A stretch of 64,000 nucleotides of DNA. It comes from Chitinophagaceae bacterium DXS. GTDB lineage: Bacteria > Bacteroidota > Bacteroidia > Chitinophagales > Chitinophagaceae. Below the pieces are notes generated by a model. That model saw only the letters and a list, made by a program, of their open reading frames with translations, searched no databases and was not told where the DNA came from. This document shows positions 4,663 to 57,881 of this stretch, piece by piece. The translations under genes were made by a program, and so were the position numbers. Numbering within the stretch: the first letter of the stretch is position 1; each line of letters starts with the position of its first letter. The stretch covers positions 465,129 through 529,128 of the forward strand of contig CP128386.1 of the NCBI GenBank assembly GCA_030345135.1. The letters are read 5' to 3'.

Positions 4663-4702
4663 ATTGTCAGTCATAACTTAAATTGCATCTAATTCAACCA
4701 TC

Positions 4703-6262
4703 ATGCAAAAGAATAAAAGACTCCTGCTGTTTTTTATTGCGTATTCAGTCTGTACCCATCTCAGCGCCCAGCAAAATGCAATAAGCTTCACAGTTGATGC
4801 CAACAACAAGGCGCAGGTTATGGATAATATCGGCGCCTCAGGCTGTTGGTTCAGTGAAGGCATTGGAAAAAACTGGCCGGAAAAGAAAAGAGAACGCATC
4901 GCGGAATTGTTGTTCAGCAGAGAAGTCGGCGCAAACGGTAGTCCGTTAGGAATAGGACTTTCTTGCTGGCGCTTCAATATAGGCGGCGGAACAGCTGAAC
5001 AAGGCGATAGCAGTGGTATTAAAGATTTTCGCAGAAGAGTGGAGTGTTTTCTTTCTCCACAGGGAACGTATGACTGGAGCAAACAAGCCGGATACACATG
5101 GTTTGTAAAAAAAGCGAAATCGTATGGGGTAGAAAAGTTGATCGCTTTTTCCAATACACCTCCCGTTCAGTTTACACAAAACGGCCTTGGATATAAAACT
5201 TCAAAAGACTACAAAAGCAATCTTAAGCCTGGCAGCTACAGTGTTTATACCGACTTCCTGGCGGAGGTACTGGACCACTTTAAGAAAGAAGGGCTGGCTT
5301 TTGATTATGTTAGTCCGGTTAACGAACCCCAGTGGGACTGGAGCCATAAGTACATGGAAGCCGACCAGGAAGGAACACCCTGGCGCAACGATGAAATTGC
5401 GCATGTGATAAGGTCGCTCGATGAATCGCTCACGCAAAAAAAACTCTCGACAAAGATATTGCTACCTGAAGCGGGGATGCTTACCTACTTGTATGGTGGC
5501 AAAGGAAATGCAGCAAGCCAGATGCAATCATTCCTCGATCCTGCCGGGAAGAATTATGTAGGTTCGCTAAAGCATGTTCCGTCGTTAGTGGCAGGGCATA
5601 GTTATTTTACAGATGGTCCTGATAGTGTAATGATTACAGTTAGAAAAAAGCTGGCTGACAGTATTCGTAAATACAATCTCTCTTTTTGGCAAAGCGAATA
5701 TTGCATGCTGGCCGATGGATTTAAAGATGGCAATAAAGGTGACCGGTCGGCAATGGATTGCGCTTTGTTTCTTGCCAAAGTTATTCATCACGATATAAGC
5801 GTGGCCAATGCATCTGCATGGCAATACTGGAATTCTTACGAGCCGGGTAAGGCCGATGTTAATACACGTTATTATCTCATCGCGCTGCAACCTAACGAGG
5901 CCTATACTGACGGAGAATTTACCGCCACAAAAAATCTTTGGGCATTGGGCCATTATAGCCTGTTCGTACGGCCCGGTATGCAGCGTATTACATTGGAGGA
6001 AAATAAAAGTGATACGCAAAACGCAGCGCAATGCATGGTTACTGCTTACGAAGGAAACGGATCGCTGGTTGTAGTAGCAATTAATTACAGTTCCGAAGAA
6101 AAACTAATACAGCCCATGCTGAAGAATTTCCAGGCTTTCACAAAATCGACACGTTATGTAACAACTGCATCTCCCGATGATAACATGAAAGCTTATGATC
6201 AGGCATTGAACGATGCCGTAAGGCTGTCGGCGCGTTCCATTTCAACCATTGTATATAAGTAA
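4703..6262 (+). CDS. Secreted GH30 family glycoside hydrolase
   Basis: The 519-residue product has a signal peptide (ends HLSAQQ) and a GH30 clan-A (beta/alpha)8 barrel followed by the small beta-domain usual in this family. The N-terminal motif MDNIGASGCWFSEGIG matches the family's opening GFGAS-type strand. Acid/base E208 lies in SPVNEPQWDW and nucleophile E332 in FWQSEYCM. GH30 includes beta-1,6-galactanases, glucuronoxylanases and beta-1,6-glucanases; with two GH43 proteins and rhamnosidases nearby, a galactanase or xylanase role is plausible but not proven. No dockerin or carbohydrate-binding module is seen. It appears to end the first transcription block, as 580 bases without a gene follow. 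Confidence 0.85.
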   Translation: MQKNKRLLLFFIAYSVCTHLSAQQNAISFTVDANNKAQVMDNIGASGCWFSEGIGKNWPEKKRERIAELLFSREVGANGSPLGIGLSCWRFNIGGGTAEQGDSSGIKDFRRRVECFLSPQGTYDWSKQAGYTWFVKKAKSYGVEKLIAFSNTPPVQFTQNGLGYKTSKDYKSNLKPGSYSVYTDFLAEVLDHFKKEGLAFDYVSPVNEPQWDWSHKYMEADQEGTPWRNDEIAHVIRSLDESLTQKKLSTKILLPEAGMLTYLYGGKGNAASQMQSFLDPAGKNYVGSLKHVPSLVAGHSYFTDGPDSVMITVRKKLADSIRKYNLSFWQSEYCMLADGFKDGNKGDRSAMDCALFLAKVIHHDISVANASAWQYWNSYEPGKADVNTRYYLIALQPNEAYTDGEFTATKNLWALGHYSLFVRPGMQRITLEENKSDTQNAAQCMVTAYEGNGSLVVVAINYSSEEKLIQPMLKNFQAFTKSTRYVTTASPDDNMKAYDQALNDAVRLSARSISTIVYK

Positions 6263-6419
6263 AATGAAGGGAATGCAACATGCCGCGTTTAATGCCGTAA
6301 ATGTTGTCGTGCTTACTTCCTATATTTGACAATTCAATGTCGTTTATATAAGCAGGCGTCATCAACCTTGGGAGATGTCTCCAGCCTTGCCAATGATAGA
6401 TTTCATAACGGTAACAGGT

Positions 6420-6570
6420 TTTCCCGTAGGGAACTAAGCTTAATAGAAATATCCGGGTTGAGAACATCATAGCCCGATACGGCTTTAACCAAATAGAAGG
6501 GTTAATGTCCTACGGACAAGAAAGGCCTTGTATGTTTGGATTTCTATTAAACTTAAAGTCCTACGGACTA
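6420..6570. repeat. MITE-like palindromic intergenic element
   Basis: Within the gene-free stretch 6263-6842 lies a cluster of nested palindromes. AAGCTTAATAGAAATATCC (6436-6454) pairs imperfectly with GGATTTCTATTAAACTT (6538-6554). Between and beside them are two copies of GTCCTACGGAC (6507-6517 and 6558-6568), the palindrome TTCCCGTAGGGAA (6421-6433) and the hairpin TTAACC..GGGTTAA (6485-6503). No protein frame explains it. It could be a degraded non-autonomous element or a REP-like structure. I see no other structure in the rest of this gap. Confidence 0.5.
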
Positions 6571-6842
6571 TCGACGAAAAGTGTACTGTCTTCTCTTTTT
6601 GATTGTGGTTAACTAAATTGCTCGTCAACATGACGGTCCTGGTTATCAGAAAAAAGAGATTGCAGCAACACCAATAACGGGTAGATAATAATAAGGGAAT
6701 CCGCACCTGAATCGTCACCTCGACGATAGGAAAGGTCTCCCGAAAATGAATCTGGTTGTGGAAGTTGATCGGTATTTTAGGATGGAAAATCTTAACTAAA
6801 CGGCATTCATTGATAATCATCCAAACAACACGATTTCGAGAT

Positions 6843-7679
6843 ATGAAAAAAGTATTTATTGCAATTGCTTCACTGGCAATGTATGCAACCACTGCAACTG
6901 CGCAGTCTTCCGGTAAATGGATAAAAATGTTCAACGGAAAGGATCTGAAGGACTGGACAATAAAAATTAAAGATCACAAGTTGAATGAAAATTTTGCGAA
7001 CACTTTCCGCGTAGAAGACGGCTTGCTGAAAGTGCGATATGATGGTTATGACGAATTCAAAGAACAATACGGTCATATTTTTTACAAGAAAAAATTCTCA
7101 GCATACCTGTTGGTTGTAGAATACAGGTTTGTGGGGGACCAGGTGAAAGGCGGTCCGGGTTGGGCATTTAGAAATAGTGGTGCAATGTTGCACGGTCAAT
7201 CCCCGGAATCTATGGCTGTTGAACAGGATTTCCCGATCTCACTGGAAGAGCAGATGCTTGGTGGTAACGGACGGGACGAAAGATCAACCGCCAATTTGTG
7301 CACACCGGGCACCAATGTTATTTACCTGCACAAATTCTTTACGCCACATTGTGTAAACTCTTCTTCCCAAACATTTGCCGGTGATCAATGGGTTCACGTG
7401 GAAGCATTGGTATTAGGAGATTCCATTATCCATCATATCGTTGGAAAAGATACTGTAATTACCTACGAAAAGCCTCAGTACGATGGCAAGGATCCATGGG
7501 TTAAAAGATTAAATCTGAAAGATGGCGGCCTGATCAGCGAAGGAACAATTTCCCTCCAAAGTGAAAGCCATCCTTGTGATTTCAGACGCGTAGAGATCTT
7601 CGATCTTTCTCCCTATGTAAAAGATAAAGCCAAACTGGCAAAAATGGTGAAAGAGCTGCAGGAGAGAAAAACAAATTAA
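6843..7679 (+). CDS. Secreted DUF1080 (3-keto-glycoside hydrolase-like) protein
   Basis: A 278-residue secreted protein starting at the ATG at 6843, which gives a textbook signal peptide (MKKVFIAIASLAMYATTATAQ); the longer frame from 6756 adds 29 residues with no signal character. The opening KMFNGKDLKDWTIK and the segments YGHIFYKKKFSAYLL, GWAFRNSGAMLHGQ and SEGTISLQSESHP mark the DUF1080 family, a concanavalin-like jelly roll. Members of this family have been linked to cleavage of 3-keto-glycosides, others only to sugar binding. It sits in the carbohydrate cluster upstream of a rhamnosidase-like gene. The family call is firm; the reaction is uncertain. Confidence 0.85.
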   Translation: MKKVFIAIASLAMYATTATAQSSGKWIKMFNGKDLKDWTIKIKDHKLNENFANTFRVEDGLLKVRYDGYDEFKEQYGHIFYKKKFSAYLLVVEYRFVGDQVKGGPGWAFRNSGAMLHGQSPESMAVEQDFPISLEEQMLGGNGRDERSTANLCTPGTNVIYLHKFFTPHCVNSSSQTFAGDQWVHVEALVLGDSIIHHIVGKDTVITYEKPQYDGKDPWVKRLNLKDGGLISEGTISLQSESHPCDFRRVEIFDLSPYVKDKAKLAKMVKELQERKTN

Positions 7680-44157: not shown

Positions 44158-44179
44158 CCAGCCTGTAGTGTTGAAAAAT

Positions 44180-44692
44180 ATGAGCGAAGAAAAAAAATGG
44201 TACGCCATTTATACTAAACCCCGTTGGGAAAAAAAGGTCTCCGCACTTCTTGCGCAAAAGAGTCTGGAAGCCTGGTGTCCCGTCCAGAAAATCAGGCGCC
44301 AGTGGAGCGACCGTAAAAAAACTGTCCTGGAACCTTTGTTTAAATCTTATGTTTTTGTTCATGTATCGGAAAAAGAGAAAACCGATGTACTACGCACAGG
44401 CGGCGTGGTTAATTTTGTGTATTATTTGGGTAAGCACGCTGTCATCCGGCAGCGCGAAATAGATACAATTAAGGCTTACCTGTTGGAAGAAGGTGCACAG
44501 ATCTCCGTTGAATCATGGGAATCTTTAGCCGAGAATATCAAAGTACAGGTGACACAGGGTGTTTTTATGAATAGTACAGGTACTGTTGTGCGTTCCAGTC
44601 ATAAAAAAGTATATGTAAGGCTGGAAAGTCTTGGACAGGTAATGATGGTTGAGTTTCCTGTCGCACATGTAGAAAGACTGGCCGAACGGTAG
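44180..44692 (+). CDS. UpxY/NusG-like transcription antiterminator
   Basis: A 170-residue NusG paralogue. The NGN domain spans about residues 1-105 (KKWYAIYTKPRWEKKVSALL, WCPVQKIRRQWSDRKKTVLE, PLFKSYVFVHV) and a KOW-like C-terminal domain follows (VTQGVFMNSTGTVVRSSHKK, VRLESLGQVMMVEF). ATG 44180 is preferred to TTG 44168. In Bacteroides, UpxY proteins are encoded first in capsule operons and let RNA polymerase read through their leaders. Here no polysaccharide gene follows: a terminator lies 27 bases after the stop and the next gene is antisense. It must act in trans or is a relic. The housekeeping nusG would be elsewhere. Confidence 0.88.
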   Translation: MSEEKKWYAIYTKPRWEKKVSALLAQKSLEAWCPVQKIRRQWSDRKKTVLEPLFKSYVFVHVSEKEKTDVLRTGGVVNFVYYLGKHAVIRQREIDTIKAYLLEEGAQISVESWESLAENIKVQVTQGVFMNSTGTVVRSSHKKVYVRLESLGQVMMVEFPVAHVERLAER

Positions 44693-46128: not shown

Positions 46129-46584
46129 CTATCCGCTGGTTGAAGCCGAAGCCAGGCCAATTACTTTTTCAATTACAGAAGGATCATTAGGAGGAAGACT
46201 GCCTGTGGCTTCTGATCCTATTTCAAAAAAGTACTTTTCCAAACCAGCAGGGGAGAGCATTGTTAGCAATCTGCCTTTTGTTTTGCCTACATTTCTGAAA
46301 GTATGCAATGTACCTTTCGGAATATGGATAAAATGACCAGCCCCGGCTTCAATTTGTTGTTTTCCGCGGACAAAAGAAAACTGCCCGTCTAAAACATAAA
46401 ATGCCTCATCCTCCAAATGGTGGATGTGCCGGGGCGGTGCACTACCAGGCTGTATGCAACCCTCTGTTATCGTAAATGCTCCGCCCGTTTGGTCACCTGT
46501 AATATGAAAAGTATACAGGTCACCAAGTACCCGTAAGGATGTTGATTTTTCTGCAAAGAGCTTAAGCTTATTCAGTAAATGCAT
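46129..46584 (-). CDS. Cupin-domain protein
   Basis: A 151-residue single-domain cupin. The first cupin motif is visible as PPRHIHHLEDEAFYVLDGQF, with metal ligands HIH and E, and the second as FIHIPKGTLHTFRN, with the third His. This resembles cupins of the quercetinase-like or YxaG-related group and sugar-isomerase-like proteins, which bind Fe, Mn or Ni and act as dioxygenases, isomerases or ligand sensors. It starts 35 bases after the methyltransferase gene and shares its direction, so the two are probably one operon acting on the same small aromatic or other metabolite. The reaction cannot be named. Confidence 0.87.
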   Translation of the reverse strand: MHLLNKLKLFAEKSTSLRVLGDLYTFHITGDQTGGAFTITEGCIQPGSAPPRHIHHLEDEAFYVLDGQFSFVRGKQQIEAGAGHFIHIPKGTLHTFRNVGKTKGRLLTMLSPAGLEKYFFEIGSEATGSLPPNDPSVIEKVIGLASASTSG

Positions 46585-46619: not shown

Positions 46620-47666
46620 TTATTTATAAGCAATCAATGCGCTCGAAGGACCGGTGAGATGCATAATGTCAACCTGTTTAAAGCCTGCTTCCTTTGCCCA
46701 GCCTGTAAAGTCTGCGGCTGTATAATCAAATCCGCCAAATGTTTCAAGCAGCATATTCAGTGACATAAGCAGACCAAATGCATTTTCTTTCCTTTCGTCG
46801 TCAATCACATTTTCAATAACCACAAATGCGCCTCCGTCAGGTAAAGCATCATAGGCCTTTTTGATCAGTATTTTCTTGTCTTCCAAACTCCAGTCATGCA
46901 GAATGTTGCCCATTGTTATAATGTCGGCTTGGGGAAATGGATCTGTAAAAAAGTTACCTGATACTACTTGTACACGGTCGGCCACTTCGTTGTTGTTGAT
47001 ATTGCGTTGAGCGATCGGAGCAACTTCCGGAAGGTCAAAAGTTGTTGAAATTATTTGCGGTTGATGAATGGCGATCTGAATGGAAAGATCACCACCGGCA
47101 CCACCTATATCACAATGTGTATAGTATCCTGAAAAGTTGAACTGGTTGGCAAAAGCGATGAAATTACCAAGCTGAATGCCACCCATTGCATGAATAAATT
47201 CTTCAAGACGTTTTTCATCTGCATATAATGCTGCAAATACTCCGTCGCCGCCATTCTTTACTTCATTTTGGGGAAGACCCGTTTTTAAACCTTCGCCAAG
47301 ATCTCCCCAAAAAGAATAGACACGATTGTTGGCCATGGCAAGAATACCACCCATGTAAGATGGCCGCTTTTTGTTGAGGAAAATATCCGTTTCCAACGAG
47401 TTGGCATATTTAGCTTGTGAGCCCTGGCCACTGCGGCAAAGGAACTTCATCGCAACGAGTGCATCGAGAAAATCTTCAATGCCCCTGCCGTGTAATTGCA
47501 ATGACTCTTTGATTTCGGCTGAAGTTTTACTGTCATCAGAAAGCAATGTAAAAAGGTCAAAACCCACGGCGGTCAGTAATACTTTAGATGACCAGAAGGC
47601 GAAGCCGGTTTGCATAATTCGGGAAGGATTGATTACTACCTGGTTTGAGATTGTTTCAGTTAGCAT
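46620..47666 (-). CDS. SAM-dependent O-methyltransferase (family 2)
   Basis: A 348-residue methyltransferase of the Methyltransf_2 (caffeate/hydroxyindole O-methyltransferase) type. The N-terminal helical dimerisation domain (about 1-100: FWSSKVLLTAVGFDLFTLLS, EIKESLQLHGRGIEDFLDAL) is followed by the Rossmann domain with motif I CDIGGAGGDLSIQIA, TTFDLPEVAP, and ITMGNILHDWSLEDKKILIK. The last contains the HDW whose His is the catalytic base in plant and bacterial members. Substrates of relatives are phenols, antibiotics and quinones. It is first in a two-gene unit with the cupin. No biosynthetic gene cluster surrounds it. Confidence 0.88.
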   Translation of the reverse strand: MLTETISNQVVINPSRIMQTGFAFWSSKVLLTAVGFDLFTLLSDDSKTSAEIKESLQLHGRGIEDFLDALVAMKFLCRSGQGSQAKYANSLETDIFLNKKRPSYMGGILAMANNRVYSFWGDLGEGLKTGLPQNEVKNGGDGVFAALYADEKRLEEFIHAMGGIQLGNFIAFANQFNFSGYYTHCDIGGAGGDLSIQIAIHQPQIISTTFDLPEVAPIAQRNINNNEVADRVQVVSGNFFTDPFPQADIITMGNILHDWSLEDKKILIKKAYDALPDGGAFVVIENVIDDERKENAFGLLMSLNMLLETFGGFDYTAADFTGWAKEAGFKQVDIMHLTGPSSALIAYK

Positions 47667-47824
47667 AAGATTAGTTTTATGAATGAATAATTTGAGACCG
47701 TTTTATAGTGATGTGCTAAAAACGTAAGGCTAAATTATTCATCCACAAAGCGGTAATGGGCGCAATGGCAATCAATGGTGCGGTAGATGGAATGAACGGA
47801 AATAAATAGAGAATAAAAGATTAA

Positions 47825-49123
47825 CTATGAGAGAGGGAGCGTTACACGAACTATTGTTTTCTTATTTAGTACACTATCAACTTCTATATTCCCACCATGC
47901 ATTTTTACGAACTCTTTTGCAACAAGCAGTCCAAGGCCGGTACCTTTTTCGTTTTCCGTTCCGCTGGTATTCTTTTTTTCACCAGCCTCAAATAGGAAAG
48001 AAAGTTTTTCCGGCGCAATTCCTACTCCGTTATCTTCAATTTCAATAACAGCCTGATTATCCTCCAGGTTTGTTCTCAATTTAATTACACTTCCTCTGGA
48101 TGAATATTTAATTGCGTTGCTTAAAAGATTTCTGAATACTGCAGTTAAAAGATCGTAATCTGCGACGACAGGTGTAACAAGAGTATATTCAGTGTGAATT
48201 GTAAGTTCTTTTTGAAGAAGCTGATCGTTATAAATTTCAGTAACATCATTCAGCAGATCTGAAAGGCTTGTGCGTTCCGGGTGATATTGTATTTCTTTCG
48301 TTTGCGCGAGCGCCCAATTCAACAGGTTGTTAAGTAGCGTATTGAGCTTATTAACTGACTGATCAATGCGCTGGGAAAGCAGATCAATTTTCTCGCGTTC
48401 ATTTTGTTTGTTGTAGTGACCTACAAGTTTGGCTATGCTTTGAAAGGAAGTGATCGGGCCTCTCAAATCGTGACTGATGACGGAAAAAAGCCGGTCTTTT
48501 GTTTGATTGCTCTTGCGCAGTTCTTCTGTTCTTTTTGCAATAATATCCTCCATCGAATCGAACAGTACAGAGTTTTGAATAGAGACTGCAATAGCTTGAG
48601 AGAGTGTAATGAGAAAAGCTTCGTCTTCTTTGCTGAATACACTTAGGTTATAGCTTTCAGCCAGCAATACAGCCACAAGTTCGTTATTGGCGATAAGTGG
48701 AATGGCTATCTGGCTTTCGGGATTATCCAGTCCCGGAAGTGTTTGTGCGACCTGTTGCGGAAGACTATTGTTAACTGCCAGGTAATCTTTTTTTCTTCGG
48801 ATGCCTGTAATATTAATAGGCAATCTTTTTACAGCAGCCAATCCCGCAATGCCGGTTCCGAATGGTATGGAAAAGCCCGTATGATCTTTTTCGTAACCAT
48901 AGCTGCATTGTACAACCAGATTTTTCAACGCTTTATCCGGCAACAGAATAAGACTGTAATGAATATAAAACTGATCGTTTAATATTTTCAGAATGTTTTG
49001 CAGTTTATCGGGCAGACTCAAAACTTTGTTCAACTCGAATGTAACCGTTGCCATCAGGTGATTTTTTCGCCTGGCTTCATTCAGTTGTCGTGTGAGTAAT
49101 TGAAGTTGATTATCATCTGTCAT
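47825..49123 (-). CDS. GAF-domain sensor histidine kinase
   Basis: A 432-residue cytoplasmic histidine kinase without transmembrane segments. A coiled stretch (1-25) is followed by a GAF domain (about 30-185, HYSLILLPDKALKNLVVQCS, FGTGIAGLAAVKRLPINITG). The HisKA domain contains the phosphoacceptor H218 in VISHDLRGPITS. The HATPase domain has the N box LLSNAIKYSS and the G boxes EIEDNGVGIAPEK and KGTGLGLLVAKEF. It starts two bases after the upstream PNPOx gene and is last in the four-gene operon with a LytTR regulator, the likely phosphorylation partner. The GAF domain could bind a small ligand, haem or flavin-derived signal. Confidence 0.93.
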   Translation of the reverse strand: MTDDNQLQLLTRQLNEARRKNHLMATVTFELNKVLSLPDKLQNILKILNDQFYIHYSLILLPDKALKNLVVQCSYGYEKDHTGFSIPFGTGIAGLAAVKRLPINITGIRRKKDYLAVNNSLPQQVAQTLPGLDNPESQIAIPLIANNELVAVLLAESYNLSVFSKEDEAFLITLSQAIAVSIQNSVLFDSMEDIIAKRTEELRKSNQTKDRLFSVISHDLRGPITSFQSIAKLVGHYNKQNEREKIDLLSQRIDQSVNKLNTLLNNLLNWALAQTKEIQYHPERTSLSDLLNDVTEIYNDQLLQKELTIHTEYTLVTPVVADYDLLTAVFRNLLSNAIKYSSRGSVIKLRTNLEDNQAVIEIEDNGVGIAPEKLSFLFEAGEKKNTSGTENEKGTGLGLLVAKEFVKMHGGNIEVDSVLNKKTIVRVTLPLS

Positions 49124-49125
49124 AA

Positions 49126-49530
49126 CTACAATGGATAAAGACGGGTTACTTCTATAATTTCAAAAAGATCCGCTGCCAGTAAGTGAAATACATCAGTCAT
49201 GCCTTGAACACCCGCTATTACTTCAAGCTGTAATTTCATTTGGTCATAAATAGAACCTTCCGCCCGGGATTCTTTAAACCTGAGTTGCATTTTGTACAAC
49301 GCATATGTCACTGGTGAGGTAAGCACAACACAAACCATCGGGTTCTCAGTAATGTTCCTTACTGTTTTATTAAAGAATTGCCTGGACAATGCCACGTGTG
49401 TATCATCAACATAAAATACCTGCGATACATATGTAACATTTGGTATGCCATCCGCTGATGCAGTAGAAACGACTGCCGGAATTACGCCCTCAAAAGCGGG
49501 CATCATTTCTTCTAATATCTGCTCATTCAT
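49126..49530 (-). CDS. PNPOx-like flavin-binding protein 2
   Basis: A 134-residue split-barrel protein of the pyridoxamine 5'-phosphate oxidase family (VIPAVVSTASADGIPNVTYV, LSRQFFNKTVRNITENPMVC, VLTSPVTYALYKMQLRF). Such domains bind FMN, F420 or haem. In other bacteria very similar domains are fused in front of GAF-type sensors with kinase or cyclase outputs, which suggests this one is a detached sensor module of the adjacent GAF kinase (recollection of the family, not checked). Its ATG overlaps the end of the preceding gene by four bases (ATGA), so translation is coupled, and it ends two bases before the kinase. Confidence 0.85.
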   Translation of the reverse strand: MNEQILEEMMPAFEGVIPAVVSTASADGIPNVTYVSQVFYVDDTHVALSRQFFNKTVRNITENPMVCVVLTSPVTYALYKMQLRFKESRAEGSIYDQMKLQLEVIAGVQGMTDVFHLLAADLFEIIEVTRLYPL

Positions 49531-50006
49531 TTGTTGTCCTCCAGGTCTATAACCTGCCTCCCTGTGCCTTTGTGCGGTGTCTGTTCATAAATATAGCGTA
49601 CGTTGAATGTCACTGCAAAAGATGGCCGGTGGAAATATGATTGAAAAAGCGGCTCCTTTAAAAATCCAAATGATGTTGTGATGTCTGTAAATGCATCGAA
49701 ATATTTTCGTTGTAATGCTTCCTCTTCCTGTGTACAGGGGCGAATAGACTGGTAGGTGCCTTTATACTGATAACTTTCAAAACTTGGAACACAGGTGGCG
49801 GCAAGTGCAATGTTGGTGTTGAGCTGCAGATTGTGTATGAATTTTTTTCCAAAAACCTCACTGATAAAAAAGGTGATATTTCTAATGTCGTTTACTTCAG
49901 CAATGCCGGCGCAACGGACGATTTCCGGTGCGTTGTTATCGTCGCAATTGGAAGCCCAAAGCGCCGATGGCTCTGTTAAAAGTTGATAATATGGTGTATC
50001 GTTCAT
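49527..50006 (-). CDS. PNPOx-like split-barrel protein 1
   Basis: A 159-residue protein with weaker similarity to the pyridoxamine-phosphate-oxidase split-barrel fold: EIVRCAGIAEVNDIRNITFF, FGKKFIHNLQLNTNIALAAT and YKGTYQSIRPCTQEEEALQR correspond to the sheet that contacts flavin and to the dimer region. The product does not have a clear enzyme signature, so it may be a ligand-binding rather than catalytic member. It starts six bases after the LytTR gene and overlaps the next gene by four bases. Together with PNPOx 2 it could form a hetero-oligomer that senses a flavin, haem or redox state for the kinase; inference. Confidence 0.75.
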   Translation of the reverse strand: MNDTPYYQLLTEPSALWASNCDDNNAPEIVRCAGIAEVNDIRNITFFISEVFGKKFIHNLQLNTNIALAATCVPSFESYQYKGTYQSIRPCTQEEEALQRKYFDAFTDITTSFGFLKEPLFQSYFHRPSFAVTFNVRYIYEQTPHKGTGRQVIDLEDNK

Positions 50007-50012
50007 AAGTAG

Positions 50013-50768
50013 TTAAATCAGTTTAAGCTTGCTAAACAAAGCGTCTTTATATGTTTTTCCGATGGGAATTTCTTTGCCCGCTATTTTAAGAACACTGTCA
50101 TCAAGGTTTACCTCTTCTATTGCTTCTGTTTTTACTGCGAATGATCTGTGTGTCTGAATAAAGCTATTGGCGGGAAGTTGGTCCAACAGGTTTTTCAAAC
50201 GAATGTTAACTGCATAGCGGCGTTCTTTCGTATGTACATAACAGTACTTTTCTTCTACTTCAATAAACAATAGATCTGTTATAGGAATTTTCAAAAGACG
50301 GTTGTTGTATTTAACAAAGAAGGCGTTGTATGAAACATCTATTTTATAGGCCGTATCCTCATCTTTCTTTTCATTGGCCGGATGGTTATTAAAAAGCGCC
50401 AGTTCCATTGCCAGTTGAAGGTTTCTTTCATTGTAAGGCTTAATAATATAAGCAGAAGGATTGGTTTGCCTTGCTTTTGCAAAAGTTTCCGAATCAGAAA
50501 ATGCCGTTACGTAAATAACAGGTGTTTGGCGAATGGCCGATGCAATTTCCACAAATTCAATTCCGTTCAGCGGACCGTTAATTTCTATATCCATCAGCAG
50601 GAGATCCGGCGGCTGTTGTTTAAACAATTTCAGCGCGTCTATCGCATTGTCAACAATTGAAAATTTGGAATAGCCCGATTCCGGCAACAACATTTGCAGG
50701 GTTTCGGCATGTATTGGGTCGTCTTCTACCGCAAGTATGTACAAGTCAGACATGACGTTTGTTTCCAT
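50013..50768 (-). CDS. LytTR-family response regulator
   Basis: A 251-residue two-component regulator. The receiver domain (about 8-125) has the acidic pair in VEDD, phosphoacceptor D60 in LLLMDIEING, the Thr/Ala switch in VTAFSD and the Lys in IIKPY. The LytTR DNA-binding domain occupies about 150-251 (ITDLLFIEVEEKYCYVHTKE, FIQTHRSFAVKTEAIEEVNL). It is first in the operon with two PNPOx proteins and the GAF kinase, an order in which regulator and sensor enclose the putative input proteins. LytTR regulators bind pairs of short direct repeats; none was identified confidently upstream. The ATG at 50753 is an alternative start. Confidence 0.93.
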   Translation of the reverse strand: METNVMSDLYILAVEDDPIHAETLQMLLPESGYSKFSIVDNAIDALKLFKQQPPDLLLMDIEINGPLNGIEFVEIASAIRQTPVIYVTAFSDSETFAKARQTNPSAYIIKPYNERNLQLAMELALFNNHPANEKKDEDTAYKIDVSYNAFFVKYNNRLLKIPITDLLFIEVEEKYCYVHTKERRYAVNIRLKNLLDQLPANSFIQTHRSFAVKTEAIEEVNLDDSVLKIAGKEIPIGKTYKDALFSKLKLI

Positions 50769-50988
50769 GAATTGATCGACTTATGATTTTGCAAGCCAAT
50801 TGATATCTTTTATAGCAGGGTGTGTTTTTTAGGTTTAGTCATCAATGCTGTTTATTCCTTTCATCCGGTCATTTATTCTGTCCACAGTTTATTTCATTGC
50901 AGTCGGCCCCATAGCTTCTTCTTCGGTTACTAGTTTAGCATTGTCTTCAACAATGATAATAAAAATTAGCACGCATAAAAACAGGTTT

Positions 50989-52167
50989 ATGAAAAAAGTA
51001 AAGACTTTCTTTTTGTTGCTTGGTTCAACAGCAACTATTCTTATGTTTTGTTCGTGTACAAAAGAGCAACGTCCTGGCCCGGCTGGTAACGGAGACCAAA
51101 ACAATCCCGGCAGCACCAGCCTTAATGTCAACGTTACAACCGTTGCAGGAAAACGCGGCGAACGGGGCAATGCGGAGGATGGCAACGGTGTATCTGCGCG
51201 TTTTTGGAACCCCGGGAAGATGGTCTTCGACAGCCGTAACAATATGCTGTATATCGCAGATGGAAGCGTGATTAGGAGCATGGACATGCAATACAACGTG
51301 AGTACCTATGTGCCGTTGCGCATGTTGGGAAGTTCATTTAATGATATATTGGATATAGCACTCGCTCCTGGTAACGGTGGAAGCCTTTACGTAACTACAA
51401 AAGAAAATGACCTCTGGAAAATTGAACCGGATGGAGATCAGGCAAGCGCTATTAATATTATCAACAGGGTGTATAGCGGCAATGCAATTGGGTCCATGAA
51501 TTCCGGCGATCATTTTGATTTGGCCAGAGGATTGGCAACAGGCGCAAATGGGGAGATTTATTTCTTCAATCAATCCTGGGCCACTCTTCACCGGATCAGG
51601 CTTTCGTCCTTAACAGAAGGTGTAGTAGAAATATTTGCTGGCAAGGCAGAAAATAAAAGTGGTGGCGATGGTAATCCTTATCCGTTCCTGGACGGAAAAG
51701 GCGAGCTGGCAACTTTTGGCGCCAGGGTTTCGGATATAGCTTCCGATGCGAATGGAAATATTTATGTGGCTGACTTTGACAATAATCTGGTCCGTAAAAT
51801 TACTCCTGATGCAACGGTTACTTCTTTGTTCCCTTTCAAAACTCATGTAGGAGTTGATGTTGATGGGCCGATAGCGAAAGCAGAATCCAACAATGTGTTA
51901 CAAGTGGCAACCACAGATGATGGCAATTTCATTTTCTTTACCACTTACGGTTATGCCGGTAACAACCTCAATGCCCTCCGCATGGTAAGACCGGGAAAAG
52001 ACGTCATCACACTCGCAGGCTATTCCGGTCATGCTTCCTACGGTGATGGTCCCGGAACGACTGCCGGCCTCGGCGAAACCGGCGGCATTGCGGCAACTCC
52101 GGATGGTAAAACAATCTTTGTTTCTGAACCCGGACAAAAGGTGATCCGCAAGGTGACGATTGAGTAG
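50989..52167 (+). CDS. NHL-repeat lipoprotein
   Basis: A secreted protein of 392 residues; ATG 50989 gives a lipoprotein-like signal (KVKTFFLLLGSTATILMFCS followed by Cys), whereas the longer frame from 50845 has an unrelated leader. After a Gly/Asn-rich linker the body is an NHL-type beta-propeller: FWNPGKMVFDSRNNMLYIAD, FDLARGLATGANGEIYFFNQ, GARVSDIASDANGNIYVADF, NNLVRKITPDATVTSLF and GIAATPDGKTIFVSEPGQKV. NHL propellers bind carbohydrate, protein or RNA. It lies between the leftward signalling operon and the rightward utilisation locus but is separated from the latter by 222 bases, so it may not belong to it. Confidence 0.82.
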   Translation: MKKVKTFFLLLGSTATILMFCSCTKEQRPGPAGNGDQNNPGSTSLNVNVTTVAGKRGERGNAEDGNGVSARFWNPGKMVFDSRNNMLYIADGSVIRSMDMQYNVSTYVPLRMLGSSFNDILDIALAPGNGGSLYVTTKENDLWKIEPDGDQASAINIINRVYSGNAIGSMNSGDHFDLARGLATGANGEIYFFNQSWATLHRIRLSSLTEGVVEIFAGKAENKSGGDGNPYPFLDGKGELATFGARVSDIASDANGNIYVADFDNNLVRKITPDATVTSLFPFKTHVGVDVDGPIAKAESNNVLQVATTDDGNFIFFTTYGYAGNNLNALRMVRPGKDVITLAGYSGHASYGDGPGTTAGLGETGGIAATPDGKTIFVSEPGQKVIRKVTIE

Positions 52168-52389: not shown

Positions 52390-52995
52390 TTGCCTGCTTT
52401 GACTTTAACTGATAGTTGTGCCGATGAGCCTTTGATGCTGCAAATTTCTAAAGGCGATGAAAATGCGTTCCAGCAATTGTTTTATCAATACAAGGATAAG
52501 CTGTATGCTTTTGCTTTTCGTCTTACAGAATCTAATGAGACAGCTGAAGACATAGTGCACGATACTTTTCTAAAACTGTGGCTCAACAAAGAAAAACTGA
52601 CAGAAGTAAAAAATGTAAATGCCTACATATACAAGGCTGCACATAATAACATCTACAATGCCTTCCGCCGCAAGGCCAAAGAAACACTGATATTGTCTGA
52701 GCTGAAAAAAGAACTAAGTATTGAGGTCGATGATACGGACAACAGGATTTTGCTAAATGAAGCCCAATTACTTATTGACAATGCCATAGATAAGCTCACA
52801 CCGCAACAGCGTGAAGTTTTTAAAATGAGCAGAAAAGAAGGTTTAAAAACAGAAGAAATAGCGCAGCGGCTTAACATCTCACTCTTTACAGTGAAAAAAC
52901 ATTTGACTAATGCAATAAATTATTTGCGGAAAGAAGTGGCCAACTCTTACAGGCTTGAAGTAGTGCTTTTTGCCCTCTACATGTTAAGGCGCTGA
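52390..52995 (+). CDS. ECF sigma factor, Bacteroidota type
   Basis: A 201-residue sigma-70 factor of the extracytoplasmic-function group. Region 2 is seen at about residues 25-95 (FQQLFYQYKDKLYAFAFRLT, AEDIVHDTFLKLWLNKEKL) and region 4 at about 130-185 (LTPQQREVFKMSRKEGLKTE, EIAQRLNISLFTVKKHLTNA). The frame opens with TTG at 52390; the first in-frame ATG, at 52435, would cut into region 2, so TTG is kept but is uncertain. It is followed by a FecR-type anti-sigma gene and then susC with an STN domain, the standard order for a locus controlled by transmembrane signalling. Confidence 0.93.
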   Translation: MPALTLTDSCADEPLMLQISKGDENAFQQLFYQYKDKLYAFAFRLTESNETAEDIVHDTFLKLWLNKEKLTEVKNVNAYIYKAAHNNIYNAFRRKAKETLILSELKKELSIEVDDTDNRILLNEAQLLIDNAIDKLTPQQREVFKMSRKEGLKTEEIAQRLNISLFTVKKHLTNAINYLRKEVANSYRLEVVLFALYMLRR

Positions 52996-53195
52996 TTTTT
53001 TTAAAAAAAGTTTCTTTACAACTACTACCACTTTGCTTTTCATTTGTCTTACTTATATGTGGTTATTTTTTTGCCTGCATCATTGTCTAATTAAACGCAT
53101 AACGTTGGGCTGAAACCAAAATGTATTATTAAAAGATCAGGTTAATTGTTGAATAAGAAGACTCGTTCAACAAAGCTTGTAATAAATGTTGTTGA

Positions 53196-54374
53196 ATGTC
53201 GCCAAGATTAGCCTATCTGCTGGAGAAGTATTTGAACAAAACGCACACGGAACAAGAAATGCAGGAGCTTGCAGAAATTGTTCTCAATTCAGAACACGAT
53301 GAAGCGGTTGCGGAGTTGTTAGAAAAACGCTGGAATGAATCGCAGGCCCCTGAAGTTTTGTCAGAGCCTGTGTCGCAATCAATTGTTCGGTCAATTCTCA
53401 GCGCCGAAATACCCGGATCCAACTCAAAAAACAATAAGATAATCAGCATGATCTCACTGAAACGGCTTTGGGTTGCTGCTTCGGTTGTTTTGATTGTCGG
53501 AGTTGGTCTCTACCAGTTATTTTCCAACAGTGGAAGTGATGCTGATAAAAAACACGTGCCTGCTGTAGCTCAGGATGTTAAAGCTCCCGTGGGTAACAAA
53601 GCTGTGATTGTAATGAATGATGGAAGCAAGATTTCGTTGGATAGCATATCCGGGGCATCGATCTCCATTCAGGGTAATGTGAGCGTAACCAAAACAGGCG
53701 ATGGTCGCGTGGCGTATAGCGGAACTTCAGATGTCATAGTTAATAATACACTCATAAATCCGCGCGGCAGCAAGGTTGTAAATATCACCCTGCAGGATGG
53801 AACAGCCGTTTGGTTAAACAGTGAGAGTTCAATTAAATATCCTATTGCATTTACAGGCAAGGAACGGACTGTAGAGATAACGGGAGAAGCATACTTGGAA
53901 GTGGCAAAAGATCCCTCCAGGAAATTTATTGTAGTTACAAACGGTGCAAGAACAGAAGTGTTAGGAACGCACTTTAATGTAAATGCCTATGGTGATGCTG
54001 GACATACCAATATAACACTGCTTGAAGGAAGTATAAAAGTATTTAATAATGGTTCAGCGGCATTGCTTACGCCAAACCAGCAGGCGCAGTTGTACAGCGA
54101 CAGTAAGATCAATGTGATTGATCATGTTGAAGCAAGCGAAGTTGTTGCATGGAAAAACGGATTGTTTAGTTTCAACAGTCTTCCGTTAAAAAATATCATG
54201 CAGCAGCTGGAACGGTGGTACAATGTAACTGTGGTTTATGAAAATGTAACCAATACCAAACACTTCAGCGGCATCTTCAGCCGCAGCGATAATGTATCGG
54301 AAGTTTTAAAGGTGATGCAGTTGGCTGGCTTAAAGTTCAAAGTAGAAGGTGATAAAATTACTGTAACAGAATAA
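53196..54374 (+). CDS. FecR-type anti-sigma factor
   Basis: A 392-residue inner-membrane anti-sigma factor. The cytoplasmic N-terminal part (1-85, LEKYLNKTHTEQEMQELAEI) binds the sigma factor. A single membrane segment lies at about 90-108 (LWVAASVVLIVGVGLYQLF). The periplasmic FecR domain follows (about 180-300: NPRGSKVVNITLQDGTAVWL, FTGKERTVEITGEAYLEVAK, VLGTHFNVNAYGDAGHTNIT) and a C-terminal DUF4974 domain (NIMQQLERWYNVTVVYEN, FSGIFSRSDNVSEVLKVMQL). It receives the signal from the STN domain of the SusC encoded next and releases the ECF sigma factor. Confidence 0.94.
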   Translation: MSPRLAYLLEKYLNKTHTEQEMQELAEIVLNSEHDEAVAELLEKRWNESQAPEVLSEPVSQSIVRSILSAEIPGSNSKNNKIISMISLKRLWVAASVVLIVGVGLYQLFSNSGSDADKKHVPAVAQDVKAPVGNKAVIVMNDGSKISLDSISGASISIQGNVSVTKTGDGRVAYSGTSDVIVNNTLINPRGSKVVNITLQDGTAVWLNSESSIKYPIAFTGKERTVEITGEAYLEVAKDPSRKFIVVTNGARTEVLGTHFNVNAYGDAGHTNITLLEGSIKVFNNGSAALLTPNQQAQLYSDSKINVIDHVEASEVVAWKNGLFSFNSLPLKNIMQQLERWYNVTVVYENVTNTKHFSGIFSRSDNVSEVLKVMQLAGLKFKVEGDKITVTE

Positions 54375-54491
54375 ACAAAAGCTAAGATTTCAATACTTGT
54401 ATTTCTGCAAAAGAATTTGCGGATAACTCCGGTTTGCGTGTATCAGCTCACTTTTTTAGTATCAATTATTATGTAACCCAAAGGACAAACT

Positions 54492-57400
54492 ATGGATTCA
54501 AAGACGTATTGTTTTCTTCGGTTAGGAAAAAAGAAAACAATCAGCAAAACGCTACTGACTATGAGATTCATGATTTTTTTCTTATTGGCTGTAAGCTTGC
54601 AGGTTAATGCAAAAGGCTACAGTCAGAAAGTTTCAATCAATGAGAAAAATGCTTCTCTGAAACAGATTTTTAAATCAATCAACGTACAGGCTGGCTATCA
54701 TTTTTTTTATGAAGATGAACTCATCAGCAAAGCAGGTAAGATTGATATCAATGTAAAAGATATGCCTGTTGCAGAAGTGTTGAAGACATGTTTTAAAAAC
54801 ATGCCCTTTACTTTCACTATTTCGCAAAACACTATTGTTGTAGTGCCTGTTCCTCAAAAGAAAGAGCAACAAACAAGCGCCGTTCAAATGGTGCCTCAGG
54901 CTGCTTCGGTAATTGTTAAAGGAACAGTGAGAGATGAAAATGGCAAGCCTTTGGAAGGGGCTTCCATCAAGTTGAAGAGTGATGGCAGGGGAGTTGCGGC
55001 AGATGCAAACGGGGATTTTTCTCTTACAGTGCCGGATGCTTCCGCTGTGCTTGAGGTTTCTTATGTTGGATATGAAACTGCTGAAGTAAGCGTATCAGGA
55101 AGCACAACAGTGAACATTATTTTGAAGCAGGTTATTGCAAAAACTGAGGATGTGGTTATTGTTGCTTATGGCACACAAAAGAAAACGAATTTAACAGGAG
55201 CGGTTTCCACTGTGTCGGCAAAAGATTTGACTGACCGTCCTGTTACGAATGTTACAAATGCATTGCAGGGCAAGCTTTCCGGCGTAACTATTACAACCAA
55301 TAATGGCCAGCCGGGAAGAGATGGTGGTACTATTAATATCAGGGGTGTCGGCACGGGCCTTGGTGGTTCTCCTGCCGCTGCCGGTCCGATGGTAGTGGTG
55401 GATGGTGTGGTTGCATCTTTGGGTGAAGTAAATCCAAACGATATTGAAAGTATTACAGTACTTAAAGATGCCTCTTCTGCTGCTATCTACGGAGCAAGAG
55501 CTTCCAATGGTGTAATTCTTGTGACAACTAAAAAAGGTAGGAAAGGAAGTTTACAGATTAGCTATGATGGATATGCAGGTGTACAATCAATTACAAGAAA
55601 ACCCGATTTTTTACCATCATGGCAGCAGGCTCAATTGTACAATGAGGCACTGGTGAATGAAGGTGGTACTGCTAAATGGAGCGACCAGGATATTCAGTTG
55701 TTTAAAGATGGTACTGACCATACAGGTGCACATCCTAATACTGATTGGTTAGATCTGTTTTATTCAGAGCCAGGTTACCAGACAAGCAATAATATAAGCC
55801 TTAACGGAGGAGACGAGAAAACCAGGTACATGTTTTCCCTGGGATATTTTGATCAGAAAGGAAATGTGCCCAAGACAGAGTATGAGAAATACAATGTAAG
55901 ATTCAATATCAATTCACAGGTAACCAAAAAGTTTGCAATTAATGCTAATCTTGCTTATTTGTATGCTCCTTTTAAAGAGCCGGTGAGTACTTATGCAACC
56001 AGCTTTTCTCAAATTATCAGGCAAATCAATCGTGTCTCCAATACCGTTCCTTATAAATGGGAGAATGGAGCTTATGGATATGTTTCTGACGGATCTCCTA
56101 TGGCCTGGCTTGAGTCCGCTTCTTTTAATAAATGGCAGAATTATACGTTAACCGGCAATGTTGGATTAGATTATGCGCCGGTTAAAGGCCTGCATTTAAG
56201 ACCTTCATTTGCCTACAGGCTGGCAACAGGGCAGCAACAACAATTTGTAAGTGATATCCAATATTATCGCGGTGGGCCGGCAGGAACGCCTTTAACATCT
56301 ACAAAATACCAGGGCCCCAATAATTTAACCAACACAACGGACAGAACAACATACACCTTGTTGCAGATGCTTGCTGAATACGAAAAGAATCTTGGTTTGC
56401 ATCACTTCAGATTGTTGGCTGGCGCATCGCAGGAGTATTCTGTTTATAATAATTTCTCAGCCTATCGCCAGGGTTTTTTAAATAACTCCATCACACAGAT
56501 AAATGCGGCCCCGGCAGACGGACAGGTTGCAAAAGGATATGCAAACGATTGGGCATTGCAATCTGTTTTTGGCAGGTTTAACTATGACTTTGCTGATAAG
56601 TATTTGTTTGAAGCAAATGTCAGGTCGGATGGATCTTCACGCTTTGCTCAAGGTAAAAGATGGGGAACATTTCCTTCATTTTCTGCCGGATGGGTTATTT
56701 CGAAAGAGGTATTCTTTGATAACCTGAAAGATAAAATTAACCAGTTAAAGCTAAGGGCTTCATGGGGGCGCCTGGGTAATCAGCAGATCTCCAATTATCC
56801 AACTATCTCTACCGTTGCGCCAGGACAGGTTTATTCTTTCAACCAAAGCCTTGTGTCAGGCATCGCGCCCACAACCGGTGCTAACACCGACATTCAGTGG
56901 GAAACAACCGAGACTTACGGAGCTGGCATTGACGCATCTTTCCTTAGAAACAAACTGGCCGTATCATTCGATGTCTTTAATAAGAATACCGATAACATTT
57001 TAATGGTATTGCCGATTGGCGCGCCTTATGCGCTGAGTGCTCCTTTCCAGAATGCCGGTGCAATGACGAATAAAGGATTTGAACTTAATGTGGGTTGGAC
57101 CGATAATATTGGCAAAGTGAATTATTCACTCAACGGTAATGTGACCTATACAAAGAATACTGTTACCGATCTTAAAGGTGCAGGACCATTCATTGATGGA
57201 GGCACATTTTATGATGTGGGTTATCCTTTCAAATCGTTATTTGGCTTACAGGCAGAAGGAATTTATCAGTCACAGGATGACGTTTCCAAATCCGCAGTGC
57301 TTAATTCAAAAGTAGCTCCTGGTGATTTAAAGTATAAAGATCAAAATAAGGACGGTGTTATAGATGCAAAAGACAGGGTGTACCTGGGTTCCTATTTTCC

Positions 57401-57881
57401 AAAATATACGTTCGGTTTAACCGCTACTGCAGAATATAAAGGCTTCCAGCTTAGCTTGTTTTTCCAGGGAGCTGCAGCGGTTAAAGCCGCCGGAGGCAAT
57501 ATGATTGGAATGGTTGGTCCCGATGTACAAAAGCCAACTTCTGTGTTCCTCGACAGGTGGACTCCTGATCATCCTTCTAACGCTTTTCCAAGAGTCTGGT
57601 ATAAATACACACAAAACGATCCCAACACAAACCCATCTTCATTTTGGGTGAAGGATGCTTCATACATCCGTCTGAAAAATTTGATGCTGTCGTACAGTCT
57701 GCCAAAAAGCTGGATTGCTAAGGCACATTTAAGCAATGTGAAAATTTTCTATAGCGGACAAAACATTCTGACGTTTACAAAATTCTACAAATGGATAGAT
57801 CCTGAAGTTGGTTCTTCAGCCAGCATCTACAGCTATCCGCAGGTAATGGTTAATTCAATTGGTTTAAATGTTGCATTCTAA
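54492..57881 (+). CDS. susC: SusC/RagA TonB-linked transporter with STN domain
   Basis: A 1129-residue outer-membrane glycan transporter. A signal sequence (ends VNAKGYSQ) is followed by an STN domain (about 45-110, KNASLKQIFKSINVQAGYHF), which contacts FecR, then a carboxypeptidase-like domain (about 140-215, VKGTVRDENGKPLEGASIKL) and the TonB box/plug (VVIVAYGTQKKTNLTGAVST, VNPNDIESITVLKDASSAAI). The remainder is a 22-strand barrel ending in VNSIGLNVAF. It works with the SusD lid encoded 11 bases downstream. The STN domain makes it both importer and signal transducer for the local sigma factor. Confidence 0.96.
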   Translation: MDSKTYCFLRLGKKKTISKTLLTMRFMIFFLLAVSLQVNAKGYSQKVSINEKNASLKQIFKSINVQAGYHFFYEDELISKAGKIDINVKDMPVAEVLKTCFKNMPFTFTISQNTIVVVPVPQKKEQQTSAVQMVPQAASVIVKGTVRDENGKPLEGASIKLKSDGRGVAADANGDFSLTVPDASAVLEVSYVGYETAEVSVSGSTTVNIILKQVIAKTEDVVIVAYGTQKKTNLTGAVSTVSAKDLTDRPVTNVTNALQGKLSGVTITTNNGQPGRDGGTINIRGVGTGLGGSPAAAGPMVVVDGVVASLGEVNPNDIESITVLKDASSAAIYGARASNGVILVTTKKGRKGSLQISYDGYAGVQSITRKPDFLPSWQQAQLYNEALVNEGGTAKWSDQDIQLFKDGTDHTGAHPNTDWLDLFYSEPGYQTSNNISLNGGDEKTRYMFSLGYFDQKGNVPKTEYEKYNVRFNINSQVTKKFAINANLAYLYAPFKEPVSTYATSFSQIIRQINRVSNTVPYKWENGAYGYVSDGSPMAWLESASFNKWQNYTLTGNVGLDYAPVKGLHLRPSFAYRLATGQQQQFVSDIQYYRGGPAGTPLTSTKYQGPNNLTNTTDRTTYTLLQMLAEYEKNLGLHHFRLLAGASQEYSVYNNFSAYRQGFLNNSITQINAAPADGQVAKGYANDWALQSVFGRFNYDFADKYLFEANVRSDGSSRFAQGKRWGTFPSFSAGWVISKEVFFDNLKDKINQLKLRASWGRLGNQQISNYPTISTVAPGQVYSFNQSLVSGIAPTTGANTDIQWETTETYGAGIDASFLRNKLAVSFDVFNKNTDNILMVLPIGAPYALSAPFQNAGAMTNKGFELNVGWTDNIGKVNYSLNGNVTYTKNTVTDLKGAGPFIDGGTFYDVGYPFKSLFGLQAEGIYQSQDDVSKSAVLNSKVAPGDLKYKDQNKDGVIDAKDRVYLGSYFPKYTFGLTATAEYKGFQLSLFFQGAAAVKAAGGNMIGMVGPDVQKPTSVFLDRWTPDHPSNAFPRVWYKYTQNDPNTNPSSFWVKDASYIRLKNLMLSYSLPKSWIAKAHLSNVKIFYSGQNILTFTKFYKWIDPEVGSSASIYSYPQVMVNSIGLNVAF

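Follow-up and report, generated by a model that had tools for sequence, protein, structure and literature searches.

A compact operon of four genes in a 64,000-nucleotide stretch of the Chitinophagaceae bacterium DXS genome (contig CP128386.1, positions 465,129 to 529,128; referred to here as the window) encodes a LytTR response regulator, two split-barrel proteins designated PNPOx-A and PNPOx-B, and a soluble histidine kinase with a GAF domain. The reading favored here, with a probability of about 0.57, is that the operon encodes a two-component circuit in which the A-B pair would act as a sensor and control the GAF kinase, and the LytTR regulator would in turn control a nearby methyltransferase gene (perhaps with a cupin gene) and the operon itself. 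Homologues of A, B and the GAF domain occur together in loci of nine phyla, and the C-terminal output domain that follows them is swapped between lineages. The coordinates agree with the original prediction of a four-gene operon with gaps of 6, -4 and 2 bases, with all genes on the minus strand and in the following order.

50013 to 50768, minus strand: LytTR response regulator (receiver plus LytTR DNA-binding domain), 251 residues, assigned by Pfam
49527 to 50006, minus strand: PNPOx-A, a diverged split-barrel protein with QxKG and QTPxxxxG motifs, 159 residues, assigned by a structural model and a profile match
49126 to 49530, minus strand: PNPOx-B, a PNPOx_N split-barrel protein, 134 residues, start codon overlapping the end of A by 4 bases
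47825 to 49123, minus strand: soluble GAF-HisKA-HATPase histidine kinase, 432 residues, SHDLR at residues 217-221, assigned by Pfam

The regulator matches Response_reg (6e-19) and LytTR (1.1e-19), both above the Pfam cut-off. The kinase matches HisKA (6.8e-7) and HATPase_c (6.7e-25) above the cut-off, and GAF_2 at 2.1e-7. The phosphosites are present in both sequences, SHDLR in the kinase and the aspartate of MDIE in the receiver. Both small proteins were predicted to have the PNPOx fold, and this holds for each of them by a different route. PNPOx-B matches PNPOx_N at 2.4e-10 (41.3 bits against a cut-off of 28.1). PNPOx-A has no match in Pfam or NCBIfam, and of four A relatives three score 18.5-23.1 bits with PNPOx_N, below the cut-off, and one has no score. 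The AlphaFold model of A, built with 29 aligned sequences, is a confident split barrel with a mean predicted local distance difference test score of 95.2, and its best match in the PDB is HupZ (Z 12.5, root-mean-square deviation 3.1, 121 aligned). The best 50 structure matches, down to Z 9.9, are by title for the most part split barrels that are PNPOx-like or bind FMN, F420 or haem, and the sequence identity of A to the matched PDB chains listed is about 6-16%. A profile of nine Pseudomonadota A proteins, built without the window or any Bacteroidota rows, finds the window A at 3.7e-16. When the own genome was searched with an A profile (E up to 0.1), only A (7.7e-47) and B (1.7e-4) were returned. 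A and B are taken to be paralogues because hhalign matched the two profiles with a probability of 96.5 and an E of 1e-9. The B profile also has weak kinship to HutZ, a named heme-binding protein (0.0025), and to an FMN-binding protein. A second B match in the own genome (0.333) was rejected as chance; the open reading frame is a hexosaminidase by eye.

A scan of 84,980 species genomes with a B alignment, in which A was not part of the search, gave 205 relatives, and the best 80 were studied. By title these are 52 Pseudomonadota, 8 Acidobacteriota, 5 Bacteroidota, 5 Chloroflexota, 4 Actinomycetota, 2 Myxococcota, one each of Planctomycetota, Spirochaetota and Gemmatimonadota, and one unassigned. 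A lies directly upstream of B on the same strand in 77 of the 80. The three exceptions are locus L035, in which A is joined to B in a single protein, L051, which retains only the end of A at an apparently chimeric junction, and L055, where A was not found. The 4-base overlap of A and B is exactly as in the window in 59 of the 79 loci in which both genes were found, a count that depends on start codons picked by a fixed rule. In L035 (5398-7356), a Planctomycetota metagenome-assembled genome, A, B, GAF and the C-terminal domain form a natural fusion of 652 residues, in which an Ala/Pro/Gly-rich linker, about 40 residues long, joins A and B; the 50 structure-alignment rows listed for its model fall mostly on the GAF part. 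In 79 of the 80 relatives B is either fused to a GAF homologue or followed by a gene for one, the exception being L015, which has no GAF after B. The GAF domain of the window kinase was found at 2.2e-36 by a GAF profile of 29 rows that holds no kinase-type member, and the next GAF of the genome scored 6.4e-7; as judged by sequence, it belongs specifically to the GAF family of the module. Because the A-B order and the GAF are kept across relatives, the conserved unit is A + B + GAF, a constancy that the original prediction missed, as it did the exchange of outputs between lineages. Its proposal of a multi-protein cytoplasmic sensor stands as far as a conserved multi-protein cytoplasmic unit is concerned, and a sensor role is suggested by the arrangement.

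The same organization was seen on plasmids. With B alone, relatives were found on 20 plasmid records, whose names all point to Pseudomonadota (35-43% identity). In the nine regions that were read, an A homologue always precedes B, and B makes up the N-terminal domain of a GAF protein in eight and is a separate open reading frame in the ninth (L007). This ninth region (4604-7200, R. leguminosarum plasmid) has a truncated-looking A, separate open reading frames for B and for GAF with the C-terminal domain, and an OmpR-type regulator after them by eye; it looks like a decayed or newly split copy.

The distribution of the unit is patchy. The window sits in one 7.29-Mb contig and the genus-level search covered the own genome only. 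A BLAST search with B alone in 195 genomes of the family also found only the own genome, as did profile matching at the strong level among 298 genomes of the order. In the phylum there were strong matches in 4 of 395 genomes, the own included, and two of the other three coincide with L015 and L016. Weak matches, two in the phylum and one in the order (2.7e-9, 5.8e-9, 8.8e-9), were left out of membership. A scan of genome contigs with A only gave 67 pattern matches, none of them a relative, and B was used instead. The arrangement is conserved beyond one species, which excludes one of the refuting outcomes named with the original prediction. The exact window order of LytTR, A, B and GAF-kinase was found in two of the 80 relatives, L014 from Niastella vici and L031 from a Daejeonella metagenome-assembled genome. 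The LytTR regulator is 79% identical to its counterpart in the same place in Niastella and 38% identical to that in Daejeonella; for PNPOx-B the values are 68% and 47%.

Three outputs follow the unit. In 66 of the 80 relatives B, GAF and a C-terminal domain are one open reading frame, which agrees with the earlier statement that PNPOx-like domains are fused to GAF sensors in other proteins; in three more the C-terminal domain is on a separate open reading frame (69 of 80 in total). A class III cyclase domain ends the GAF protein in six (L016 2.7e-24, L019 2.7e-27, L024 7.6e-31, L039 3.4e-21, L041 6.7e-24, L059 4.9e-25), and there A, B and GAF are separate genes. These six are two Bacteroidota, a Paracoccaceae member, a Spirochaetota member, a Gemmatimonadota member and one unassigned. 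Beyond the best 80, the Bacteroidota-side locus L103 has the same split order and a cyclase-like C-terminus by eye. The third output is the kinase with the LytTR regulator. The loci L015, L048 and L050 are cut or unclear.

The C-terminal domain of the fused form has no Pfam family; among 21 members, three chance-level matches (0.13-0.2) were seen with one member each. The alignment of the 21 members has 15 invariant columns. In the L035 model the domain consists of strands, helix, strand, helix, helix and hairpin, an order like that of OmpR-type winged helices. No solved relative was found (best 0.24), and comparison with OmpR-type domains by hhalign was weak (1.6%, E 0.031 with a 12-row alignment; 0.5%, 0.11 with one sequence). 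A winged-helix-like and perhaps undescribed domain is a guess from the element order of that model and the position of a conserved helix. In a midpoint-rooted tree of B (89 rows, 137 columns) the split forms are one group (100/99), and inside it the kinase forms and L015 group together (97/90) with the window beside Niastella. The tree points to an origin of the kinase version inside the split group, most of which is of the cyclase type, a placement that depends on the root.

The residues that are kept in A and B suggest how such a pair might work. Among 88 B rows (the window, 9 plasmid and 78 genome loci) the motif S-x-Q-F-F-x-K-T-x-x-N is nearly constant: S, Q, the first F and N are kept in 88, the second F and T in 87 and K in 85. 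This segment is presumably the flavin-phosphate site of the split-barrel fold. The A proteins (86 rows) do not have the KT segment but keep a Q (85), a K (84), a Q-T-P (86, 84, 85) and a G (86). In split-barrel proteins the cofactor site lies between subunits. PNPOx-A and PNPOx-B may form a heterodimer with one good composite site, to which B would contribute the KT segment and A the motifs QxKG and QTPxxxxG; a single composite site fits since the KT segment is kept in B and lost in A. The pair may bind a cofactor of flavin type, a small ligand that is aromatic or redox-active, or both, and its state would be passed on to the GAF domain of the kinase. The kinase would then phosphorylate the LytTR regulator, which may bind three 9-bp direct repeats and control the methyltransferase gene, perhaps the cupin gene next to it, and its own operon. 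The whole could be a local sense-and-modify loop.

The neighboring genes, among them the methyltransferase and cupin genes of the window, hint at small-molecule chemistry, and for this reason an aromatic or redox-active ligand is guessed. In 13 loci of rhizobia and related bacteria a cupin gene lies divergent to A. Nine of these cupins were compared with the window cupin, and six are 37-44% and three 27-31% identical to it; the other relative in the own genome is 32% identical. Upstream of the fused version there are arylamine N-acetyltransferase-like genes in 17 loci (e.g. L006 2885-3730) and flavin monooxygenase-like genes in nine (e.g. L013 2842-4386), with one of each tested against Pfam. 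These genes, like the hemerythrin-domain genes described below, cluster by lineage and therefore represent fewer events than loci.

A different role for A and B, distinctly less probable than the sensor pair, is that of a flavin-dependent enzyme, a reductase or an oxidase, which produces or removes the molecule detected by GAF and is itself outside the sensor. The fold is mostly enzymatic, and the nearest solved folds include the F420 reductase MSMEG_3380, PNP oxidases and PhzG. In the window A, B and the kinase are also separate proteins. However, the fusion of B to GAF and the C-terminal domain in 66 of the 80 relatives, and of A as well in one, suits a part of the sensor better, and A has neither the KT segment nor a passing Pfam score.

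Less likely still is a unit whose cue is haem itself or a diatomic gas (O2, NO, CO) perceived by way of haem bound to the split barrel. The best fold match of A is HupZ, a haem-binding protein, and the B profile touches HutZ. In 21 of 88 loci a hemerythrin-domain gene is located downstream of the module or in divergent orientation to A (four Pfam-tested; e.g. L010 3545-4315, L032 4633-5388, L057 1341-2006, L031 8755-9429). These loci belong to four phyla, Pseudomonadota (Alpha- and Betaproteobacteria), Actinomycetota, Acidobacteriota and Bacteroidota (Daejeonella). The window operon, however, has no hemerythrin gene beside it, with two elsewhere in the genome. The 86-row alignment of A has no conserved His, the one conserved His of B (82 of 88 rows) is not known as a haem-ligand position, and the 29-row GAF alignment has no invariant Cys or His. 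The original prediction had offered a flavin, haem or redox cue. The flavin-type segment kept in B accords with the first, and haem is the weaker of the three because A has neither the KT segment nor a conserved His. An ordinary two-component system with two PNPOx genes as mere passengers would suit a kinase and regulator of standard kinds and the rarity of the unit in the phylum, but this was rejected as very improbable because A, B and GAF are kept together in nine phyla with three different outputs.

The target genes of the LytTR regulator had been left for identification, and probable ones can be read from operator-like repeats, with binding as a prediction; this possibility had also been missed before. 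Comparison of the window with Niastella revealed 9-bp direct repeats of the form RTTNATTSY with 12-bp spacers upstream of both the LytTR gene and the methyltransferase gene. The features concerned are as follows.

50850 to 50900, plus strand: predicted LytTR operator on the upstream side of the regulator gene, with half-sites at 50850, 50871 and 50892 in a 21-bp phase, the third with one mismatch
47768 to 47818, minus strand: predicted LytTR operator in the gap between kinase and methyltransferase, three half-sites in a 21-bp phase, of which one has a single mismatch, at a distance of 102-152 bases from the start codon on its upstream side
46620 to 47666, minus strand: small-molecule methyltransferase (Methyltransf_2 plus Dimerisation by Pfam), predicted LytTR target
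46129 to 46584, minus strand: cupin protein (Cupin_2 6.3e-17), 35 bases after the methyltransferase gene
50845 to 52167 as listed, strand opposite to the LytTR gene: NHL-repeat protein, divergent to the LytTR gene

According to PMC11347149 a LytTR site consists of two 9-bp direct repeats separated by 10-13 bp, and RcoM and CoxC sites have three evenly spaced 8-bp repeats. PMC6193735, on LytTR regulatory systems, gives 12 bp as the commonest spacer and reports autoregulation, and PMC4227749 covers the repeats of AgrA. The repeats of the window and Niastella have this layout, with 12-bp spacers at two promoters in two species. In the 7.29-Mb genome the exact two-repeat pattern occurs at two places only, 50850-50879 and 47768-47797, and the reversed-pattern control at none. 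In Niastella it occurs at five places, which include the two corresponding promoters. All four promoters of the two species have a further half-site in phase, with one mismatch. A motif-free search for triples with the spacing left free between 20 and 23 was best at 21 and gave the RTTNATTSY motif in all four regions; for Niastella 1 and 0 of 300 shuffles reach the score. A pattern made from the two LytTR-side sites only (up to 2 mismatches) recovered the methyltransferase side in both species, with 1 background match in 64 kb. When three repeats were searched with up to 3 mismatches, the own genome had seven places, with fewer than 3 mismatches only at the two promoters, and the control two. 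The same search in Niastella gave 18 places against 87 in the control and one non-promoter place with 1 mismatch; the loose pattern is thus uninformative by itself in that genome. The methyltransferase gene is predicted from these repeats to be a LytTR target. Control is presumed to be by activation but could also be by repression, as CoxC is a repressor (PMC11347149).

The methyltransferase gene also follows the kinase in Niastella, where it is 70% identical. The nearest solved chains are RedM 8tji (5.8e-84) and a hydroxyindole O-methyltransferase (3.5e-34). The cupin gene is perhaps cotranscribed with it, and was not found beside the Niastella operon. The NHL-repeat gene is a possible second target. 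Its true start is probably near 50988 because the listed start overlaps the predicted operator. A scan with a promoter consensus gave 12 sites where 14.1 were expected. Behind the Daejeonella kinase another 21-bp triple was seen, which is non-significant (74 of 1000).

Several observations weigh against the proposed circuit and its operators. The operator pattern was fitted after the four sites had been seen. The window triples are modest alone, with 23 and 7 of 300 shuffles reaching the score, and the pattern with up to 2 mismatches occurs 7 times in the window against a shuffle mean of 4.1, with 14 of 100 shuffles reaching 7. Niastella has three further exact two-repeat matches, and its control has two. 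At the Daejeonella promoters, where the regulator is more distant, there is no RTTNATTSY site, and the region before its LytTR gene has no notable triple (223 of 300 shuffles). The repeats also face opposite ways relative to the LytTR and methyltransferase genes; for this reason the LytTR-side site could serve the divergent NHL-repeat gene. On the side of the sensor pair, the 80 loci are non-independent, as some are near-identical, two share a record, and two duplicate plasmid loci or are closely related to them. The A-B-GAF fusion was seen in only one of the 80 and comes from a metagenome-assembled genome. The KT segment of B is partly contained in the pattern used for the genome search, so its invariance is inflated. 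Set against these points are the conserved A-B order, the recurring 4-base overlap, the L035 fusion, the GAF partner and the three outputs.

The operon had been put forward as a candidate for an undescribed system, and no published description of the A-B-GAF unit was found in open-access full text with narrow terms. The closest relatives are PNPOx-B-GAF-C-terminal proteins such as that of Rhizobium etli CFN 42 p42e (NC_007765.1), annotated only as 'GAF domain-containing protein'. They share with the window homologous A and B, the 4-base overlap and the GAF family; they differ in that B is fused to GAF, in an unnamed and perhaps winged-helix end, and in having no kinase domain or LytTR regulator. 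The window unit is best described as a split variant rather than a member of these regulators because the C-terminal output is replaced by HisKA-HATPase. HupZ, HutZ and the F420 and FMN split-barrel proteins share the fold of A and are weakly related to B through HutZ and an FMN-binding protein, but they are free enzymes or carriers and are not known to be linked to GAF or kinases. LytTR two-component systems of the AlgZR, AgrCA and YpdAB type also have a receiver-LytTR regulator beside a kinase and 9-bp direct repeats 12 bp apart. In the window, however, the kinase is a soluble GAF protein with HisKA and two PNPOx proteins lie between it and the regulator. RcoM and CoxC, LytTR regulators of CO oxidation, resemble the window in three evenly spaced direct repeats with 12-13 bp spacing, but are one-component proteins with the sensor domain on the regulator, and for these CO sensing has been demonstrated (PMC11347149).

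Elsewhere in the window, a NusG-family protein of 174 residues at 44168-44692 is possibly a specialised antiterminator. At 52390-57881 an ECF sigma factor (Pfam-tested), a likely FecR-type protein and a SusC/TonB-type receptor stand in a row, the last two assigned by eye, an arrangement that is ordinary in Bacteroidota.

There is about an even chance that the operon represents an undescribed sensory module of nine phyla, in which two paralogous split barrels of flavin type, the site of one intact and that of the other decayed, would form a heterodimer and report a small aromatic or redox-active molecule to GAF. The outputs of the module would be a class III nucleotide cyclase, a histidine kinase with a LytTR regulator, or a DNA-binding domain that resembles a winged helix. 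The parts are of known kinds and the arrangement of the sensor is new, and there is a fair chance that the A-B-GAF unit deserves a class of its own. The window version is an easy entry to the module and is testable with one reporter because the predicted target, the operators and the sensor are within 5 kb. If the proposal is true, a sensory unit with interchangeable outputs would join the bacterial input domains, and it would concern proteins of rhizobia and other bacteria that are now annotated as pyridoxamine oxidase-like or merely GAF-containing. It would also suggest that decayed PNPOx copies may be kept as signalling partners and not as enzymes.

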